Origin: a virus
Virus record (IMG/VR): IMGVR_UViG_3300030390_001481
Span: 22,992-63,077 of that record
DNA: 40,086 nt
Strand: one strand, 5' to 3'
A program made the translations under genes and the position numbers. This document shows positions 9,661 through 38,146 of the stretch, piece after piece; position 1 is the first letter of the stretch; every line of letters begins with the position of its first letter. The notes under the pieces are model-generated. The model was not told the DNA's origin. It saw only the letters and a program-made list of their open reading frames with translations, and searched no databases.

Positions 9661-9680
9661 GTAGTAAGTAGTAAACTTTA

Positions 9681-9715
9681 GAAGGGGAGGAAATAAACCT
9701 CCTCCCCTTTTATTT
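9681..9715 (+). terminator. Intrinsic terminator after the capsid gene
   Basis: AAGGGGAGG at 9682-9690 pairs with CCTCCCCTT at 9701-9709, a G/C-rich stem of 9 bp (10 with an extra A-T pair), followed by a short T run. It lies 20 bases after the capsid stop, so it should insulate the capsid transcript. Confidence 0.85.
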
Positions 9716-31238: not shown

Positions 31239-32468
31239 TTACAAATCTAACAAATCTCTTTTAAAATGAGTAAGGGTATAATCTTTCTTTTTAACAACGG
31301 ATTTGTATATTTCACTTTCAATTCCATCATTACTAAATATCCAATATATTTTATTTTTTGATCTATTCTTTGTAGTCATTCTGTCTCTACTTTGCCAATA
31401 AGATGTGGCGCTAAAATCTATGTTGTAGTAAACTAATGCTGACGCTTCTTTTAAGCTGATACCTTCTCTTCCGCTAACAATTTGTAAAGCAATACTTTTT
31501 TCTGTTGCATTAAACTCTTCTAAATCGTTTGTAATCATGTCTTTATAAACGCTTTTTATAGCATTATATTCTTCTTTAAATTTATAAAATATACCAATTT
31601 TTTTACCTTTAAAGAATTTCTTAATATATTTAGCCTTTGTAGTATCAACAACCATAGACTTTCCGCTCTCAAACTTTACAGTTCCAGAGCATAACTGATG
31701 TACTTTTGACATCAACTTTACACCTGTGTCAGCAAGAACAATTTCTCCCTTACCCTCTATTACCCTGTCTTTTTTAATTTTCTTTATCAATGATAAACAA
31801 ACAGAACTTAAATTAACATATAAAATTTTTTCCTCAATAGTAGTTTTAAACCCTGCCATTTTTTGAGAATAATTTATTTTGTAGGGACTCATTTCGTCTA
31901 TAATACTTTTTAATCCTTTAGTGTAATCATTAATATAAATACTATTTATAAATTTTTGTTTTACTTTAATATGTACTTTACTAAAAGCATAAAAGTTTTT
32001 AAACTTATTAAAAGGATTGTTTGGTATCCCATAAACCTGGTGATACATTTGACTATATGATTCGGGTGTTGGAGTACCGCTTAATAATATAACAAAAGAA
32101 TTTGATCGGTTTATAATTTCTCTTACCTGTTTTGCTCTTTTATTAGGTTTTGGAAATGCTCCTAAAGAATGTGATTCATCACAAATAACTACATCCCAAT
32201 CAGTTTGTTTTACCTTATGTAATGATTCGTAATTTATTACTTCTAAAAAATAATCCGGATCATACTTATTGTAATCATCAACAATACTACTTATGGCTTT
32301 TTTCTTTGTAATAAATAAAACAGAATTAACTTTTAAATTATTACATATTCCTAAACTCGTTAATGTCTTACCTGTTCTAACTTCCATAGCCAGGTAAAGA
32401 AACCCATGGTCTTTTATTACTTTAGTTCCTTTATCAATAATTTGTTGTTGATACTCTCTAAACTTCAT
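31239..32468 (-). CDS. SF2 (SNF2-like) DNA helicase/translocase, 409 aa
   Basis: Phage-type DEAD/H SNF2-like helicase. The Q-like start is FREYQQQIID. Motif I is EVRTGKT (residues 29-35), motif II is DESH (97-100) and motif III is SGTPT (130-134). Motif V is in GREGISLKEASALVYYN (333-349) and motif VI in QSRDRMTTKNR (359-369). All key residues of a two-RecA-domain ATPase are present, so it should be active; the polarity and substrate cannot be told from sequence. No accessory nuclease domain is fused, but a VRR-NUC protein is encoded next. It overlaps the primase-helicase gene by 11 bases. Probable role: replication-fork or recombination-intermediate remodelling. Confidence 0.9.
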   Translation of the reverse strand: MKFREYQQQIIDKGTKVIKDHGFLYLAMEVRTGKTLTSLGICNNLKVNSVLFITKKKAISSIVDDYNKYDPDYFLEVINYESLHKVKQTDWDVVICDESHSLGAFPKPNKRAKQVREIINRSNSFVILLSGTPTPESYSQMYHQVYGIPNNPFNKFKNFYAFSKVHIKVKQKFINSIYINDYTKGLKSIIDEMSPYKINYSQKMAGFKTTIEEKILYVNLSSVCLSLIKKIKKDRVIEGKGEIVLADTGVKLMSKVHQLCSGTVKFESGKSMVVDTTKAKYIKKFFKGKKIGIFYKFKEEYNAIKSVYKDMITNDLEEFNATEKSIALQIVSGREGISLKEASALVYYNIDFSATSYWQSRDRMTTKNRSKNKIYWIFSNDGIESEIYKSVVKKKDYTLTHFKRDLLDL

Positions 32469-34845
32469 ACTTTTCTGGAAATAATATCCATCTCCCTCCT
32501 AAATCTCTACCTTCTTCTGAATTGGTATTATATTTATACAAGCCATAGCTGTGTAACCATTTCTGAAATCTTGTACGCGAAATAGTAAATTTTGATTTGG
32601 GAGCAAAATCTGGATTCTCTTCTATAAAATCGTTATACAATTCAGTTTTATAAACTCTATTGTTAGGTCTTAATTTAATGTTTTCATTAGAATCATTTAG
32701 CAATCCGCACCATTCAACAAACTCATGACAAGTTTCAGCTGAAAGTTTTCTTATTCTTAAATTTACAAATTCACTTTTAACTAATCCTGTATGCAAGTAC
32801 ATTTGCAAACAATTAATCATGTAGTTATCAAACTGACACCATTCTTCTTCATCCCAATCTCCAAACATAAGTTTTCCAAACTCTACTAATGGTGTAAATT
32901 CTTTAGTGTAATGCTGCGACAATTCTAATTCCCATTTTCTTCTTTCAAAACTTGTACCTTTACCTTTAATTGCATAGTTAGTTGTTATAGCTATTTTAGG
33001 AGATTTACTAAATGGTATCATAATTGCATCACGATTTTTCTTCTCAAGGGTTAATCCTTCCGTAACTACACTAAATAGCCTTTCAAAATCAAAGGCTCTT
33101 TTAACATCATCAAAACAAAGTATTTGTGTATCTGCTGATACAAGCTGATAAGCAAATGACCTTTCAAATGTAAAAGACTTTCCATCAATGACTACCAATT
33201 TTTTCATCTTTGCCAAACCATTCATAAACAAACCTTTACCTGTGCCTCCTTCTGGGTTGTCAGATATAACTTCGTCATTTAAAATAGTAGCTGGACAATA
33301 AGATAAATTTTTATAACCATGCATTAAAAATCCTATTGTAGATTCCATAGAAGAAATTCTACTATCATTTTCTCCGCATATATTATGTATAAACCTTTTG
33401 TAATCACATTCTTTTACGCTACATAGTGTAAAATCTCTATCTATTACATGATCCTTCCATACATATCCCCCTAAATCTAAATAATCAATAAGATTTATTT
33501 CTTTATGTGTAATTTTAACAGCACAATTCATGAAATATAAGTAAGCTGTATCTTTAGTGTCTTCAATAAAAAACACATCTATTGATGATAGTAAAGTTAA
33601 AAACTCTTCTCTAAAATATCTGGTATGTTCTGCGAAATAATTATAAACACTAATATCATCTATCTCTAATAAGTATTCTAAAACAAAATCTTTTATTTCT
33701 TTTTCAGATGTATGGTCTATTAAATTATTTATTACCCTAACAAATACATAACTCTTACTTCCTTCTGGGTTAAACTTATAAAAACCGCTATCTTCTAAAA
33801 AAGTTTTAAAATAAATATGTATAATTTTTATAACTCCTTTTTCGCTTTTTGTCCAAAATTTGTTTTCAGTTTGTTCTTCTTCTATTCTTGTAATAACCTT
33901 GTCAATATTTTCCTCATTAATTTTGTCATTTTTTATATGACATTTAATTTCATTTTTATCTACTCCTTTTCGTAGCTGACTTTTTATTAAATTTACCTTT
34001 TCTTCATCCTCATAATATTTTGAACCAAAGTTATGTGTGTTGGCATAGGCAGAATTAATTGTTCTTAAAATTTCATTTCTATTAAAATCTTTTGAATCAA
34101 AATTGCTCATTACATATTCAGCTAAAGTTTTAGGAACTCCAAAATCATTAAAAGCAGCAGCAAGAATATATACATTATTATTTCTTTCTCCGTTTCTTAA
34201 TCCATATTTTTTCTCCCACCATTTAGTAAGTATTTCTACAATTTTATTTTCATCTGTAAGAGGTATTGTTGGTTTGTCTTTGTGTACAATTTTTTCAACA
34301 TATTCTTGCTCATTAATTTTATCCCATATAATAGAACTTTTTGCTATATAGATTAATGGGTCGTAAGATTCATAGCAAACTCTTGAAACATTTTTTGATG
34401 TCGTATCAAAATATTCTGAGTTTAAATACTTATTTAATGATGAAAAATAATTTTTATGATTACCAATATCTTCTGGTATTTTCACTAAAGCCTTTAAACC
34501 TTTACCGCTGGGAGAGATAAACACAGAATAAATATATTTGTTTTTAGCAAGTTTTTCTTTTTCCTGTAACAAATCTTTACTTGTTTTATACCCATCAAAA
34601 TCTAAACATATTAAACCGCTATGTTCCATTAAAGAATTATCATTTCTTTTGTTAAATTTTCCGCTAAAACAAATTGCTGGTAATCTTTTTTTTAATTCAT
34701 TCCTAACTTCTTTATCTTTTGTTTTTCTTATTTCTTTTACTAATTCTTTGGATGATCCTTCTTCTATTCTCTTTAGAACTAATTTAACATCTCTGTAGAA
34801 TGGTTGAGATGTATCTTTTATGTCTTTAAATATTGTTACTTGCAT
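32458..34845 (-). CDS. VirE-N/BT4734-type primase fused to SF3-like helicase, 795 aa
   Basis: Main replication enzyme. The N-terminal primase-like domain has LICLDFDG (D82 and D84, metal binding), FISPSGKGLKALVKIP (110-124) and SRVCYESYDPLIYI (154-167), the conserved set of the VirE-N/BT4734 group of archaeo-eukaryotic primases. Residues about 218-275 look like a PriCT linker (GERNNNVYILAAAFNDFGVP). The ATPase half has Walker A PEGGTGKG (531-538), Walker B ILCFDD (575-580) and a sensor asparagine in AITTNY (619-624), as in SF3/D5-like helicases. A winged-helix-like tail follows (SRTRFQKWLHSYGLYKY). Such proteins prime and unwind at phage forks. One of the two RNA elements lies 14 bases upstream of its start. 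Confidence 0.85.
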   Translation of the reverse strand: MQVTIFKDIKDTSQPFYRDVKLVLKRIEEGSSKELVKEIRKTKDKEVRNELKKRLPAICFSGKFNKRNDNSLMEHSGLICLDFDGYKTSKDLLQEKEKLAKNKYIYSVFISPSGKGLKALVKIPEDIGNHKNYFSSLNKYLNSEYFDTTSKNVSRVCYESYDPLIYIAKSSIIWDKINEQEYVEKIVHKDKPTIPLTDENKIVEILTKWWEKKYGLRNGERNNNVYILAAAFNDFGVPKTLAEYVMSNFDSKDFNRNEILRTINSAYANTHNFGSKYYEDEEKVNLIKSQLRKGVDKNEIKCHIKNDKINEENIDKVITRIEEEQTENKFWTKSEKGVIKIIHIYFKTFLEDSGFYKFNPEGSKSYVFVRVINNLIDHTSEKEIKDFVLEYLLEIDDISVYNYFAEHTRYFREEFLTLLSSIDVFFIEDTKDTAYLYFMNCAVKITHKEINLIDYLDLGGYVWKDHVIDRDFTLCSVKECDYKRFIHNICGENDSRISSMESTIGFLMHGYKNLSYCPATILNDEVISDNPEGGTGKGLFMNGLAKMKKLVVIDGKSFTFERSFAYQLVSADTQILCFDDVKRAFDFERLFSVVTEGLTLEKKNRDAIMIPFSKSPKIAITTNYAIKGKGTSFERRKWELELSQHYTKEFTPLVEFGKLMFGDWDEEEWCQFDNYMINCLQMYLHTGLVKSEFVNLRIRKLSAETCHEFVEWCGLLNDSNENIKLRPNNRVYKTELYNDFIEENPDFAPKSKFTISRTRFQKWLHSYGLYKYNTNSEEGRDLGGRWILFPEKYEV

Positions 34846-34859
34846 TATATTGAATTAAA

Positions 34860-34951
34860 AAGGGGGTGAATATAAAAATTTAATTAAAAACTGGAAGCTC
34901 TTATACTCCCGTTTAATGTTAAGTGGCAAAACGCCGTTCGTCCACCCCCTT
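34860..34951 (-). ncRNA. Structured RNA element, copy A (upstream of primase gene)
   Basis: Read on the minus strand, AAGGGGGTG (34951-34943) pairs with CACCCCCTT (34868-34860), extended by one G-U and one A-U pair. The enclosed 70 bases contain GGCGTTTTGCCAC followed by TTAACATTAA, and a second hairpin GGGAGTATAAGAGCTTCC. The GGC-(A/G)-TTT-GCCAC and AAC-ATTAA parts recur in copy B 3 kb away. It lies in the 118-base spacer between the SSB-like gene and the primase-helicase gene. It may be a 5' leader regulator, a processing site or an attenuator; a T run follows the closing stem. Confidence 0.6.
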
Positions 34952-34963
34952 GTATTGTTTTGC

Positions 34964-35215
34964 CTAAAAAGGTAAATCTGGACTATCTGTTGCAGCTTCC
35001 TTTTTAGCCTCTGGCTTCCAAGTGTCTACTGCTACATAATGAGTTTTACCATATTGATCGGCTTCTCTTTTTTGTTGTACGATAAGTTTTATATATTTCT
35101 TACCATTATAATCAAAAAGATGTTCTTGAGGTAAATCAGATAAGCAAACTGAACAAGCAATTTGATTACCTTCAAACTTAGAAACACCAGAACCTACATA
35201 TATTTTTTCTTCCAT
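34964..35215 (-). CDS. Putative single-stranded-DNA-binding protein with DLPF tail, 83 aa
   Basis: I chose the ATG at 35215 (MEEKIYVGSGVSKFEGNQIA); a longer reading from a GTG at 35293 would overlap the preceding small gene and adds a stretch unlike the rest. The body is a small beta-rich domain (ACSVCLSDLPQEHLFDYNGK, KYIKLIVQQKREADQYGKTH, YVAVDTWKP), followed by an acidic tail ending SPDLPF. SSB proteins end in an acidic tip such as DDDIPF that recruits replication partners; DSPDLPF is very similar. Context (exonuclease and annealing protein upstream, primase-helicase downstream) fits an SSB analogue. OB fold not demonstrable here. Confidence 0.5.
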   Translation of the reverse strand: MEEKIYVGSGVSKFEGNQIACSVCLSDLPQEHLFDYNGKKYIKLIVQQKREADQYGKTHYVAVDTWKPEAKKEAATDSPDLPF

Positions 35216-35216
35216 T

Positions 35217-35369
35217 TTAATGTATTTTAATTTCTTGTTCCAAAATTTCAAAAATGTCTGCCAATAACTTGTGTTTTTGACGAGCATCCTCACAAGTAGT
35301 TGGAACTTCTACTGTGAATACATCTTTCTTCCATAAGAAAAAAGATATAATATTTTTAAAGAATTTCAT
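35217..35369 (-). CDS. Small hypothetical protein, 50 aa
   Basis: A short gene between exonuclease and SSB-like genes. It overlaps the exonuclease stop by 14 bases and ends just before the SSB-like start. The product begins MKFFKNIISFFLWKKDVFTV, an aromatic, hydrophobic, basic N-terminus that could associate with a membrane. It continues with PTTCEDARQKHKLLADIFEI, a helix ending LEQEIKIH. No family recognised. The tight overlap at both ends is the main evidence that it is expressed. Confidence 0.5.
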   Translation of the reverse strand: MKFFKNIISFFLWKKDVFTVEVPTTCEDARQKHKLLADIFEILEQEIKIH

Positions 35370-36084
35370 GATGAACATATGTATTAATTTCTTCTTTAGC
35401 TGTTTTGCTAAAAAATTTATTATATATATACACTGCCTGTTCTACTTTTGCCTTACCTCTTTCTAAAAACTCTGGAGATGTAGTAAAAACTGCTAACTGC
35501 AAAGTTGATTTATCTATGACATAAAACTCTAAAGGTTTGTCAAATAGTTTTTGATAAATATATGCCTGGCTATCATAGTTATATCTGTATGCACTTTGTC
35601 TGAATTTGTTTAAATCAGATGTAGTTTTTAAATCTATTATCTTGTCTGTACATATTATATCAGCCTTTCCTTTCCACCATTCATTGTTAATAATTTTAAC
35701 ATTTGGCACCTCATATTGATTAGATGTTTCATAAATCTCAACAAACATATCCATATTGGCTTTCATTGAATTTATAACTTTATCTAAGTGTTCCTTTTCT
35801 TTCAGCAGAAGCATCATCTCTCCTGTTTCTTCAGCTAATTCTTTATAAGCCTTAGTGTTTCTACTTGCTACATCTACTATTTGAAAAGATGAAAGTTTTT
35901 CTGGTTCCAGCATAGCAACATGAAAATACCTTCCTTCAAGCATAGCTTTTGTTTGCTCTTTGGACTGCCTAAAACTTTTAGGATCGTTTAATAAAGTGTA
36001 AATATCTGAATTAGATAGCCATTGTTTTCCATATTCTCCGTAGTACAAGCTATCATCTTGTAGTTTAGTTAATATCTCCTCCAT
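35356..36084 (-). CDS. PD-(D/E)XK exonuclease, RecE/DUF3799-like, 242 aa
   Basis: Phage recombination exonuclease. Features in order are WLSNSDIYTLLNDP (22-35), GRYFHVAMLEPE (51-62) with the conserved His-bearing helix, and WWKGKADIICTDKIIDLKTT (136-155) containing D142 and the catalytic D151-x-K153 pair. YNYDSQAYIYQKL (169-181) follows with the Q-x-x-x-Y helix typical of the lambda-exonuclease/RecE group. It would resect double-stranded ends to give single strands for the annealing protein encoded immediately upstream; the two genes are adjacent with a one-base overlap. All expected catalytic residues are present. Confidence 0.85.
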   Translation of the reverse strand: MEEILTKLQDDSLYYGEYGKQWLSNSDIYTLLNDPKSFRQSKEQTKAMLEGRYFHVAMLEPEKLSSFQIVDVASRNTKAYKELAEETGEMMLLLKEKEHLDKVINSMKANMDMFVEIYETSNQYEVPNVKIINNEWWKGKADIICTDKIIDLKTTSDLNKFRQSAYRYNYDSQAYIYQKLFDKPLEFYVIDKSTLQLAVFTTSPEFLERGKAKVEQAVYIYNKFFSKTAKEEINTYVHHEIL

Positions 36085-36659
36085 TATAAATGTTTTGAGA
36101 TTTCTTTCTTAACTACCGCTTTTAACTTATATTTTGTTTCTAATTGAGCAACAATTTTAGGAAGACCTAATTTTTTATTAGCTGAAACATAACTTAAAAC
36201 TTTATCCCAATTTGTATCTCCTATGTCAAGTGTAACATGAATAGGTGTATCTTGCTTTGGCTTATTAGCTATATCAATTAAATCTTCTCCTTTAAATATT
36301 GATATACCCAGCCCATGCATAGCAATTGCCTTCGCTGTAGACCTTTGTATGGCTGTGTTTACATCCATTGAGGTAATCTTCTCCAGAGCAATTGAATTGT
36401 TCCTGTAATCCATTACAGGCAGATAATCAATGTGTTCTATTTCGTTTACCGTTATGCCTACTTTTACTGAAGCTGTTTTACCATCTGTAAAAAAATTTAG
36501 ACCTGTGATTTCGCTTTCATACACCTTTCTGTTAGAATTAGGATAAGTTTCTTTAAGTAAAGACCAGGCATTAGCCCAAGACAAGTAATTAAATTTACCT
36601 TTTTTTTCTGCCATTCCTTTAACGTTGATGGCTGACAACTTTTTAAAATAATTTTCCAT
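36084..36659 (-). CDS. Single-strand annealing protein, DUF1071 (Sak3-like), 191 aa
   Basis: The product has the DUF1071 layout: KGKFNYLSWANAWSLLKETY at residues 20-39, a beta region with FFTDGKTASVKVGITVN, IDYLPVMDYRNNSIALEKI, and NTAIQRSTAKAIAMHGLGIS followed by IFKGEDL. These features define a phage family related to Rad52-like annealing proteins, which pair complementary single strands during recombination-dependent replication. It stands directly before the PD-(D/E)XK exonuclease, forming the classic two-component annealing system. The lysine-rich C-terminal 50 residues (about 140-191) may bind DNA or partners. Confidence 0.85.
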   Translation of the reverse strand: MENYFKKLSAINVKGMAEKKGKFNYLSWANAWSLLKETYPNSNRKVYESEITGLNFFTDGKTASVKVGITVNEIEHIDYLPVMDYRNNSIALEKITSMDVNTAIQRSTAKAIAMHGLGISIFKGEDLIDIANKPKQDTPIHVTLDIGDTNWDKVLSYVSANKKLGLPKIVAQLETKYKLKAVVKKEISKHL

Positions 36660-37056
36660 TTTTGTTATTTAGTTTAGTTAGTTTTTGTGTAAAGAAAGAA
36701 TACTTATTCATAACAAATTCCCTTTTTGTTTTTAAATTCTTAATAAATTTATCATTCTTTCTACTATTTACTTCTTCTTTCATTTTTTGCTCTATGATTT
36801 GTAACTTTCTTTTATTGTTATTTATACCCATAAGCAAACATCCCACCTTCCATCCATTCTTGTAAAACAATTTATATTCGTTTTCTGTTAACTCTTGAAA
36901 GTAATCTCCATTTTTAGAGCAATTCAATATTTCTGTTTTACTTGAAAATTTTTGTAATTTAAATCCATTATCTATTAAAATTTCTCCATATTTTTTAACT
37001 ATATGTATGGGAGATGTTTCTAATACTTGATTGTACAGATCTTTAAAATTATACAT
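36643..37056 (-). CDS. Basic hypothetical protein, 137 aa
   Basis: The product begins MYNFKDLYNQVLETSPIHIV followed by KYGEILIDNGFKLQKFSSKT. It has a central YFQELTENEYKLFYKNGWKV, and a lysine/asparagine-rich C-terminal half (KRKLQIIEQKMKEEVNSRKN, KREFVMNKYSFFTQKLTKLN). The overall charge is strongly positive and the C-terminus probably forms coiled helices, compatible with nucleic-acid binding. It overlaps the DUF1071 gene by 17 bases and follows the DnaA-like gene directly. I do not recognise a family. Confidence 0.6.
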   Translation of the reverse strand: MYNFKDLYNQVLETSPIHIVKKYGEILIDNGFKLQKFSSKTEILNCSKNGDYFQELTENEYKLFYKNGWKVGCLLMGINNNKRKLQIIEQKMKEEVNSRKNDKFIKNLKTKREFVMNKYSFFTQKLTKLNNKNGKLF

Positions 37057-37365
37057 TTAGCTATGTAATTTACATTTATGTGATATTGTGTCTACTACAT
37101 ATTTGTAATCTGGATCGTTATCTACATAGTTTTTAGCTTTATTGTATCCATGCATTATTGTAGAATGGTCTACCGGTAAACCATTTTCTTCCATAAATCT
37201 TTTTATGTAAGATAGTCTTATTGGTCTTTCTCTTGCTAAAAAATATAACATTTGTCTTGCTTCAACTATTTCTCTTTTTCTGGTCTTAGAAAACATCTCT
37301 CCTAAAGTTAAATGGAATTTTTCTGCAATTGCATCAGCATAGGCATCAAATATATCTTTTTTCAT
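37057..37365 (-). CDS. Stand-alone DnaA domain IV (DNA-binding) protein, 102 aa
   Basis: Residues about 15-90 match the DNA-binding domain IV of the replication initiator DnaA: FHLTLGEMFSKTRKREIVEA (20s-30s), RQMLYFLARERPIRLSYIKR, then the signature VDHSTIMHGYNKAKNYV at 65-81 (compare DHSTVxHA). Full-length DnaA is over 400 residues and has an AAA+ domain, which is absent. A separate DNA-binding domain could direct the phage origin to host factors, compete with host DnaA, or control early transcription. Its neighbours are recombination and replication genes. Target boxes are not evident nearby. Confidence 0.85.
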   Translation of the reverse strand: MKKDIFDAYADAIAEKFHLTLGEMFSKTRKREIVEARQMLYFLARERPIRLSYIKRFMEENGLPVDHSTIMHGYNKAKNYVDNDPDYKYVVDTISHKCKLHS

Positions 37366-37367
37366 AT

Positions 37368-37688
37368 TTATTTTTTATTAAATTTATTTTGTAAATCGTT
37401 AATTCTTTCTAATGTCTTGACAGCTTTGTCATAACTCATTCCTTCATTCATTAAATTGTCTATTGTTAATTGCTTTATCTCTAATTGCAAGTGATGAATA
37501 GCTTTTTCAATGTCTTCTATATGTTTTGCCATATCAGACATTCCTTCTTCTTTTTTCTTTCCGCACCTCATAAGGTATGTAAGAGCATTTCCTACATTAA
37601 ATGTAGCAGAGAAGCCATACACAACTTCACTGGCATGATAATTGTTTTTAGCAATATAGTAATCTGGCGTTGGTCTTATTGGTTTCAT
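37368..37688 (-). CDS. DUF3310-like protein, 106 aa
   Basis: The product contains NYHASEVVYGFSATFNVGNA followed by LTYLMRCGKKKEEGM, and DIEKAIHHLQLEI. This is the arrangement of the DUF3310 family: a His/Ala-Val start, F-N-x-G-N-A-x-x-Y-L-x-R-x-G-K-K and D-x-x-K-A-x-x-x-L. These small helical phage proteins are common beside replication genes and have been loosely called nucleotide kinases, though activity is not established. A coiled C-terminal helix follows. It lies two bases before the DnaA-like gene, so the two are probably co-translated. Confidence 0.7.
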   Translation of the reverse strand: MKPIRPTPDYYIAKNNYHASEVVYGFSATFNVGNALTYLMRCGKKKEEGMSDMAKHIEDIEKAIHHLQLEIKQLTIDNLMNEGMSYDKAVKTLERINDLQNKFNKK

Positions 37689-37691
37689 TTG

Positions 37692-37916
37692 TTAGTATTT
37701 ATATTTTGACATATCATTACAAATAGATAGTCTTATTTTTTTATCAAAAAAGTAATTCGTGCTGCATAACACAAATTTATTATTTAATTCTTGTTTTCCA
37801 CTATATTTAAAGAAATTATTAAAGTCTATTGTATTTTTTCTGTTCTTAATATTTTCTTCTTTAGTTTTCTTTTTTTCTTTTAAAGTGTTTACTAAATACT
37901 TGGATAAATCATTCAT
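37692..37916 (-). CDS. Basic hypothetical protein, 74 aa
   Basis: The product starts MNDLSKYLVNTLKEKKKTKE, rich in lysine and asparagine, and has a short more globular end (NNKFVLCSTNYFFDKKIRLS, then ICNDMSKYKY). It is basic throughout and may bind nucleic acid. The gene is the first after RNA element B, which ends 19 bases upstream of its ATG, so its expression may be controlled by that element. No family recognised. Confidence 0.5.
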   Translation of the reverse strand: MNDLSKYLVNTLKEKKKTKEENIKNRKNTIDFNNFFKYSGKQELNNKFVLCSTNYFFDKKIRLSICNDMSKYKY

Positions 37917-37935
37917 AATAATATTTTATTAAATT

Positions 37936-37995
37936 AAAGGAGGTGAATAATAGTATTAATTGTTGGTGGCAAATGCCTTTATACTCACCCCCTTT
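37936..37995 (-). ncRNA. Structured RNA element, copy B
   Basis: Read on the minus strand, AAAGGGGGTGAGTA pairs with TATTCACCTCCTTT, a stem of 14 bp with two G-U pairs. On the plus strand these would be A-C mismatches, so the structure favours minus-strand transcription. It encloses GGCATTTGCCACCAACAATTAA, matching the core of copy A (GGCGTTTTGCCAC...AACATTAA). It sits in the spacer upstream of the 74-residue gene, the same relation copy A has to the primase gene. Copy B lacks the second hairpin of copy A. Confidence 0.6.
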
Positions 37996-38014: not shown

Positions 38015-38146
38015 TTATTTTTGAAATGAAGCTAAAATTATAGATTTTAAAATATCTTGATTTAACTTTTGAAGCCATTGAACATACTTCTTGTTAGGAT
38101 ATTTTTTTAACTTCTCTTTTAAGATTAATTCTTGAATTTCTTTCAT
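38015..38146 (-). CDS. Small lysine-rich helical protein, 43 aa
   Basis: The ATG overlaps the stop of the zinc-ribbon gene by four bases (ATGA), which strongly supports translation. The product starts MKEIQELILKEKLKKYPNKK and continues KYVQWLQKLNQDILK, probably two amphipathic helices with strong positive charge. No family recognised. RNA element B begins about 20 bases downstream, so this gene is the last before it. Confidence 0.55.
   Translation of the reverse strand: MKEIQELILKEKLKKYPNKKYVQWLQKLNQDILKSIILASFQK

Follow-up and report, generated by a model that had tools for sequence, protein, structure and literature searches.

The RNase III sites of bacteriophage T7 early mRNA are long hairpins with inner loops that lie between early genes, and the mobile promoter-stem-loop (PeSL) regulatory cassettes of T4 are reportedly short intergenic modules common to phage genomes. 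In T4, the gene for the single-strand-binding protein (gene 32, SSB) has a translational operator in the form of a pseudoknot on its 5' side (PMC3014915). Here we examine a window of 40,086 nucleotides, bases 22992-63077 of the 63,077-base virus record IMGVR_UViG_3300030390_001481, whose minus-strand early operon carries two elements, copy A and copy B, which an earlier note made from the sequence alone had described as a duplicated structured RNA upstream of two genes (coordinates without a locus label are those of the window). Both are real structured RNAs, selected on the minus strand, and with two further forms, type 2 and class C, they make up a well-supported and previously uncatalogued set of phage structured RNAs. 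The explanation that we favor, at somewhat better than even confidence, is that A would be a terminator, attenuator or 3'-end protector for the gene before it and B a 5' leader element.

Copy B (37936..37995, minus strand) is a leader-type element recognized by the covariance model R1, with a closing helix, P1, of about 14 pairs and a GGC/GCC helix, P2. On the minus strand it runs GGGGGUGAGUA-UAAA-GGC-AUUU-GCC-ACCAACAAUUAAUACUAU-UAUUCACCUCC, UAAA and AACA..UUAAUACU being its conserved unpaired parts. Copy A (34861..34950, minus strand), an A-type element recognized by the model R2 in the gap between an ssb-like and a primase-like gene, has three helices in the order GGGGGUGGA-CGAAC-GGC-GUUUU-GCC-ACUUAACAUUAAAC-GGGAG-UAUAAGAG-CUUCC-...-UUCACCCCC. 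Alignment to R2 places the 5' arm of its P1, AGGGGGUGGA, at 34941..34950 and the 3' arm, UUCACCCCCU, followed by the U-rich tail UUUUAAUU, at 34861..34870; the P2 hairpin GGC-GUUUU-GCC lies at 34925..34935, and P3 (GGGAG-UAUAAGAG-CUUCC, then AGUUUUUAAU) at 34893..34910, all on the minus strand. P3, which shows compensatory changes and taken alone is flagged as terminator-like, is absent from the earlier note's description. What that note did describe is borne out: both elements lie on the minus strand and have the GGGGGUG/CAC(C/U)CCC stem, in which one G-C pair of A is G-U in B, and the core GGC-loop-GCCAC...AAC...AUUAA, start codons follow about 15 (A) and 20 (B) nucleotides beyond them, and they occupy two of the few gaps of at least 50 nucleotides in the early operon. 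Its worry that the elements might belong to a missed gene is answered by the finding that no open reading frame (ORF) of at least 50 amino acids covers either copy. Both score far above chance with their models, copy A at 105.6 bits with R2, of whose training set it was part, and copy B at 63.5 bits with an R1 built from homologues without it; R1 and R2 also match on the plus strand at A and B, but these hits merely mirror the stems and have far lower scores. The whole 63-kb record holds only this one A-type and this one B-type element.

The selection on RNA structure is clearest in the relatives of copy B. In relatives identified through the primase, the orthologous small gene again has this element upstream of it, and a scan of viral contigs with the B pattern returned 45 stretches, nearly all with the closing stem, against a background of six hits in bacterial genomes, none of which had it. 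In 25 aligned homologues, 97.4% of the P1 cells are paired (37-60% in slid controls), 11 of the 14 pairs have changed on both sides, and the covariation score was reached by none of 500 shuffles. Compensatory stem changes, whose lack in related phages would have counted against the earlier note's proposal, are therefore present. The stem has 56 G-U and no A-C pairs, and hence the transcribed strand is the selected one, as the note had argued from the one G-U in B. The unpaired core, UAUAAAGGC...GCC...AACA.GUUAAUACU.UUA, hardly varies, a constancy in part imposed by the search pattern; later members found by R1, with the core requirement dropped, show CAUAAAGGC, CAUAAACGGC and UUAAAAAGGC and largely keep the 3' core, and one of them has a quite different P2 helix, AGAUUA/UAAUCU. 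From the conserved core to the start codon there are 28-41 nucleotides, and the next gene codes for a 74-residue protein in most phages and is another gene in L002, L004, L110 and L101. A coding origin of the core was rejected by eye, since homologues show single-base differences in length and stop codons interrupt some of the frames; so was a hairpin or pseudoknot in the 3' strand (AAC...GUU and loop pairings), which was inconsistent across homologues.

Homologues of copy A occupy the same ssb-primase gap in L097 and L113, and a second pattern scan seeded by these two led to R2, which has 30 members at or above 40 bits (copy A and 29 other loci), many of them in unrelated phages. Across 27 distinct A and type 2 sequences, in an alignment that was fitted to the model and includes a few B rows, 98.9% of cells are paired and 14 of the 18 pairs have changed on both sides, among them all ten pairs of P1 and two of P3. 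G-U exceeds A-C by 22 to 4 in P1 and 24 to 0 in P3, an asymmetry that argues against a palindrome at the DNA level. A pairing between the junctions flanking P3 was also tried for A and proved inconsistent. Type 2 is a sister form found just upstream of B in about 20 relatives, scoring 27-30 bits with R2 where detected. Class C, a closing stem around GGACACAACGUCCAAAAAAUAA, is found at L002 4286-4360 and in L236, L215, L221, L227/L238 and L237; in L002 (primase 95% identical to that of the window) and several other phages it takes the place of copy A, and its positions are those of A, namely after ssb, between converging genes and in tandem before type 2 and B. Tandem elements are frequent, with up to three in a row. 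The homologues come nearly all from uncultured contigs, many incomplete, from which copies of one contig were removed by sequence identity only.

The view of A and B as one duplicated element fared less well. R1 misses A on the minus strand, and R2 finds B weakly, at 22 bits and E=0.005 in the window, its best match after copy A (the E-values from both models are rough); the two are thus related subtypes at most. Sequences intermediate between them occur in L217 and L229 (...AUAAACGGCAUAAGCC...), several unrelated records hold an A and a B type together, and a distant common origin is plausible from these comparisons. The note had also known of no named RNA class that fits, and no Rfam family (release 15) matched at gathering score in the window and eight related loci. 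Permissive Rfam scans, run over two stretches, gave nothing above chance level; no bacterial genome matched the elements, the six stemless pattern hits being taken as chance background; named phages gave only weak, chance-like BLAST hits; and the open-access literature yielded no described phage RNA of this kind.

The elements seem to have moved between phages. Copy A is 96% identical to the element of L203, whose 1.8-kb flanks have no DNA similarity to those of the window, and 89% identical to that of L097, which does share the window's flanks. Such identity despite unrelated flanks suggests either movement of the elements as small modules or strong constraint on them, and at 96% movement would seem the simpler reading.

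The earlier note had offered a leader role for both copies. This agrees with the position of B but finds no support as the main role of A, whose homologues are placed behind the gene upstream of them: in most loci A elements lie 2-23 nucleotides past a same-strand stop, and copy A begins 12 nucleotides past that of ssb. The genes before A include ssb of several lineages (tails DLPF or DDFDL), groEL-like (tail MGQMPGMM) and polA-like genes, all named from their C-terminal sequences, and small genes. Among 60 distinct ssb 3' regions, 43 have a plain hairpin with a U-run (the rate in shuffled sequences being 0.75%), eight have A, three class C and six neither, and one site between converging operons, after a 60-residue gene, bears type A, type 2 or class C depending on the phage. 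In the eight nucleotides after the 3' arm the mean U count is 6.2 for A, 5.05 for type 2 and 3.5 for B (often UAAAAAUU), and copy B lacks the U-run of an intrinsic terminator. Copy A has both stem and U-run, with 11 pairs of P1 followed by five U, after ssb; its P1 encloses about 70 nucleotides rather than the usual loop of about 3-8, which only the inner P3 provides. Given the interchange with plain terminators after ssb, copy A most likely fills the role of the ssb terminator, and on the sequence evidence an ornate terminator, attenuator or 3'-end protector of ssb is its most likely nature; we infer that A terminates transcription.

Under this explanation, copy A, type 2 and class C would be interchangeable terminators or attenuators, and 3'-end protectors, for the preceding gene, the G-rich P1 of copy A and its U-rich tail doing the job of the plain terminator hairpin of its relatives. 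The conserved domain of about 70 nucleotides that replaces the loop, a three-way junction of P1, P2 and P3, could tune how frequently the stem forms, and read-through would supply the downstream primase and helicase in smaller amounts than SSB. Copy B, whose stem ends about 20 nucleotides before a start codon and which has a conserved unpaired core, would be a 5' leader, the core most likely binding a protein or ligand or shielding the 5' end of the next mRNA. Several observations weigh against this scheme. The enclosed loop of about 70 nucleotides is unlike that of a classical intrinsic terminator, and fast closure of P1 is not obvious; U-tracts are weak or broken in several A and type 2 members (L147, L166, L213), and the tail of copy A is just UUUUU; the conserved P3 loop and junctions are unexplained by plain terminator function. 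For B, no particular mechanism has support other than its position, and the homologue in L229 has no start codon close behind. A bolder version, which we hold as a rather doubtful speculation, makes the A elements gated terminators exchanged by phages, whose loop domain would sense a protein or small molecule, with B answering the same signal; such a system, if true, would switch gene boundaries genome-wide together during infection.

Both elements might instead be operators for an RNA-binding protein, such as a replication protein (the SSB of the phage or a different one) or a regulator encoded by phage or host, with the stems displaying A/U-rich single strands (UUAA repeats) and binding repressing or activating the neighboring genes. 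We regard this as improbable, albeit deserving of attention: the conserved unpaired bases are rich in UUAA/AAUAUUAAA, A is often found after ssb, A and B types occur together in several unrelated phages, and T4 gp32 represses its own mRNA through a pseudoknot and UUAA(A) repeats (PMC3014915). However, the T4 operator lies 5' of its SSB gene and A lies 3', copy A being past the ssb stop rather than upstream of its start; the genomes are A/T-rich, so that UUAA is common anyway; and no single partner gene was identified, the 74-residue protein having been rejected as an obligatory partner since several records with elements, among them two of about 108 kb, lack it.

The stems of 10-25 pairs, and the tandem [type 2][B] and [class C][type 2][B] arrays with short A/U stretches between their members, would also suit processing sites like those of T7 early mRNA, at which a host endonuclease such as RNase III cuts long stems or tandem spacers, so that the upstream RNA gains a protected 3' end and the downstream RNA a protected 5' end. 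RNase III, however, does not depend on a conserved loop sequence, whereas the unpaired cores here barely vary, and B stands alone in the window; we consider this unlikely. The same cores, with about 20 invariant unpaired bases in B (in part imposed by the search pattern) beside a stem free to change, and the conserved P3 loop in A, would be expected of a ligand-gated switch, whose inner aptamer would decide P1 formation and the transcription stop in A, or translation of the next gene in B. The elements are nonetheless tied to no one pathway, their many neighbor genes being unrelated, and match no Rfam riboswitch, and we give this still less credence. That they are self-cleaving ribozymes or excised small RNAs, acting independently of neighboring genes, we hold to be very improbable: a small conserved core, a variable outer stem and occurrence in unrelated phages with no fixed partner gene would fit, but no Rfam ribozyme matched, and a role at 3' ends accounts better for the interchange with plain terminators.

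The operon around the elements encodes replication and recombination proteins: a helicase, a VirE/primase, an SSB-like protein, an exonuclease, a Sak-like annealing protein and a DnaA-like protein, the last labeled after an orthologue annotated dnaA in a related phage. The ssb-like gene (34964..35215, minus strand; C-terminus PDLPF) has orthologues in relatives and no PHROG or Pfam match, and owes its name to the DLPF tail and operon position, no family model matching. The VirE/primase-like gene (32458..34845, minus strand) matches phrog_28855 and phrog_18375 (DNA primase/helicase). Its nearest named relatives are a spring-water phage and phages of Flavobacterium and other Bacteroidota, and for this reason the host is probably a flavobacterium. 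Downstream of B, the 74-residue gene (37692..37916, minus strand) has no Pfam match above cut-off, and its own profile matches in 23 of 40 phage records; the protein, with its FKYSGK.E motif and NDMSKYKL tail, occurs in several phage lineages, usually just after B, type 2 or A. A conserved ORF of 43 residues (MKEIQELILKEKLKKYPNKKYVQWLQKLNQDILKSIILASFQK; 38015..38146, minus strand), shorter than the usual annotation length, ends about 20 nucleotides before copy B, and homologues lie upstream of B or type 2 elements in many relatives. A scan for sigma-70-type promoters near the elements gave fewer matches than in shuffles, and ARAGORN found no tRNA or tmRNA in the window. The plain G+C-rich hairpin at 9677-9714 (AAGGGGAGGA...UCCUCCCCUU), which is nearly perfect, is probably an ordinary terminator. 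In the more distant relatives L013-L081, the primase is preceded by a long A/T-rich tract that contains short direct repeats (e.g. GACATAATCGACAT), possibly a replication origin or promoter region. At another early-operon site, long-loop terminator-like stems are seen in L009 (2203-2259), L011 (1848-1905) and L008 (2182-2262), and L010 has a plain hairpin; the loop GAAUGAUAACUAAAUUUUGCUGUUAUCC is common to L009 and L011, and that of L008, a single contig in the scan, is unrelated.

These elements add an uncatalogued set of RNAs to phages that probably infect Bacteroidota, where RNA control is little known, and they offer a direct test of how such phages control the levels of SSB and the replication genes; the covariance models and alignments allow further searches. 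Putative terminators with a large conserved domain inside the stem, which are swapped with plain ones and can be near-identical in phages that are unrelated, point to a regulator or host factor in common. With intrinsic terminators the A elements have in common a G+C-rich stem and U-run right after a stop codon, at the site of plain terminators in orthologous ssb loci and also between converging genes; they differ in a loop of about 70 nucleotides, with two conserved helices and conserved unpaired bases, in place of 3-8 nucleotides, and in that some members have no clean U-run. Like the PeSL cassettes of T4, they are short intergenic modules in phages with differing flanks, but no promoter was recognized alongside them in the sigma-70-type scan, their fold is more elaborate and conserved, and their phages are probably those of Bacteroidota. 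The gene 32 operator is likewise a structured RNA with A/U-rich UUAA stretches linked to ssb, whereas copy A is on the 3' side of ssb, and members of its class are found at many other genes. Finally, the RNase III sites of T7 resemble them in being long hairpins that have inner loops and are placed between early genes, a short way ahead of start codons, but here the inner loops are conserved and the A type is interchangeable with terminators.

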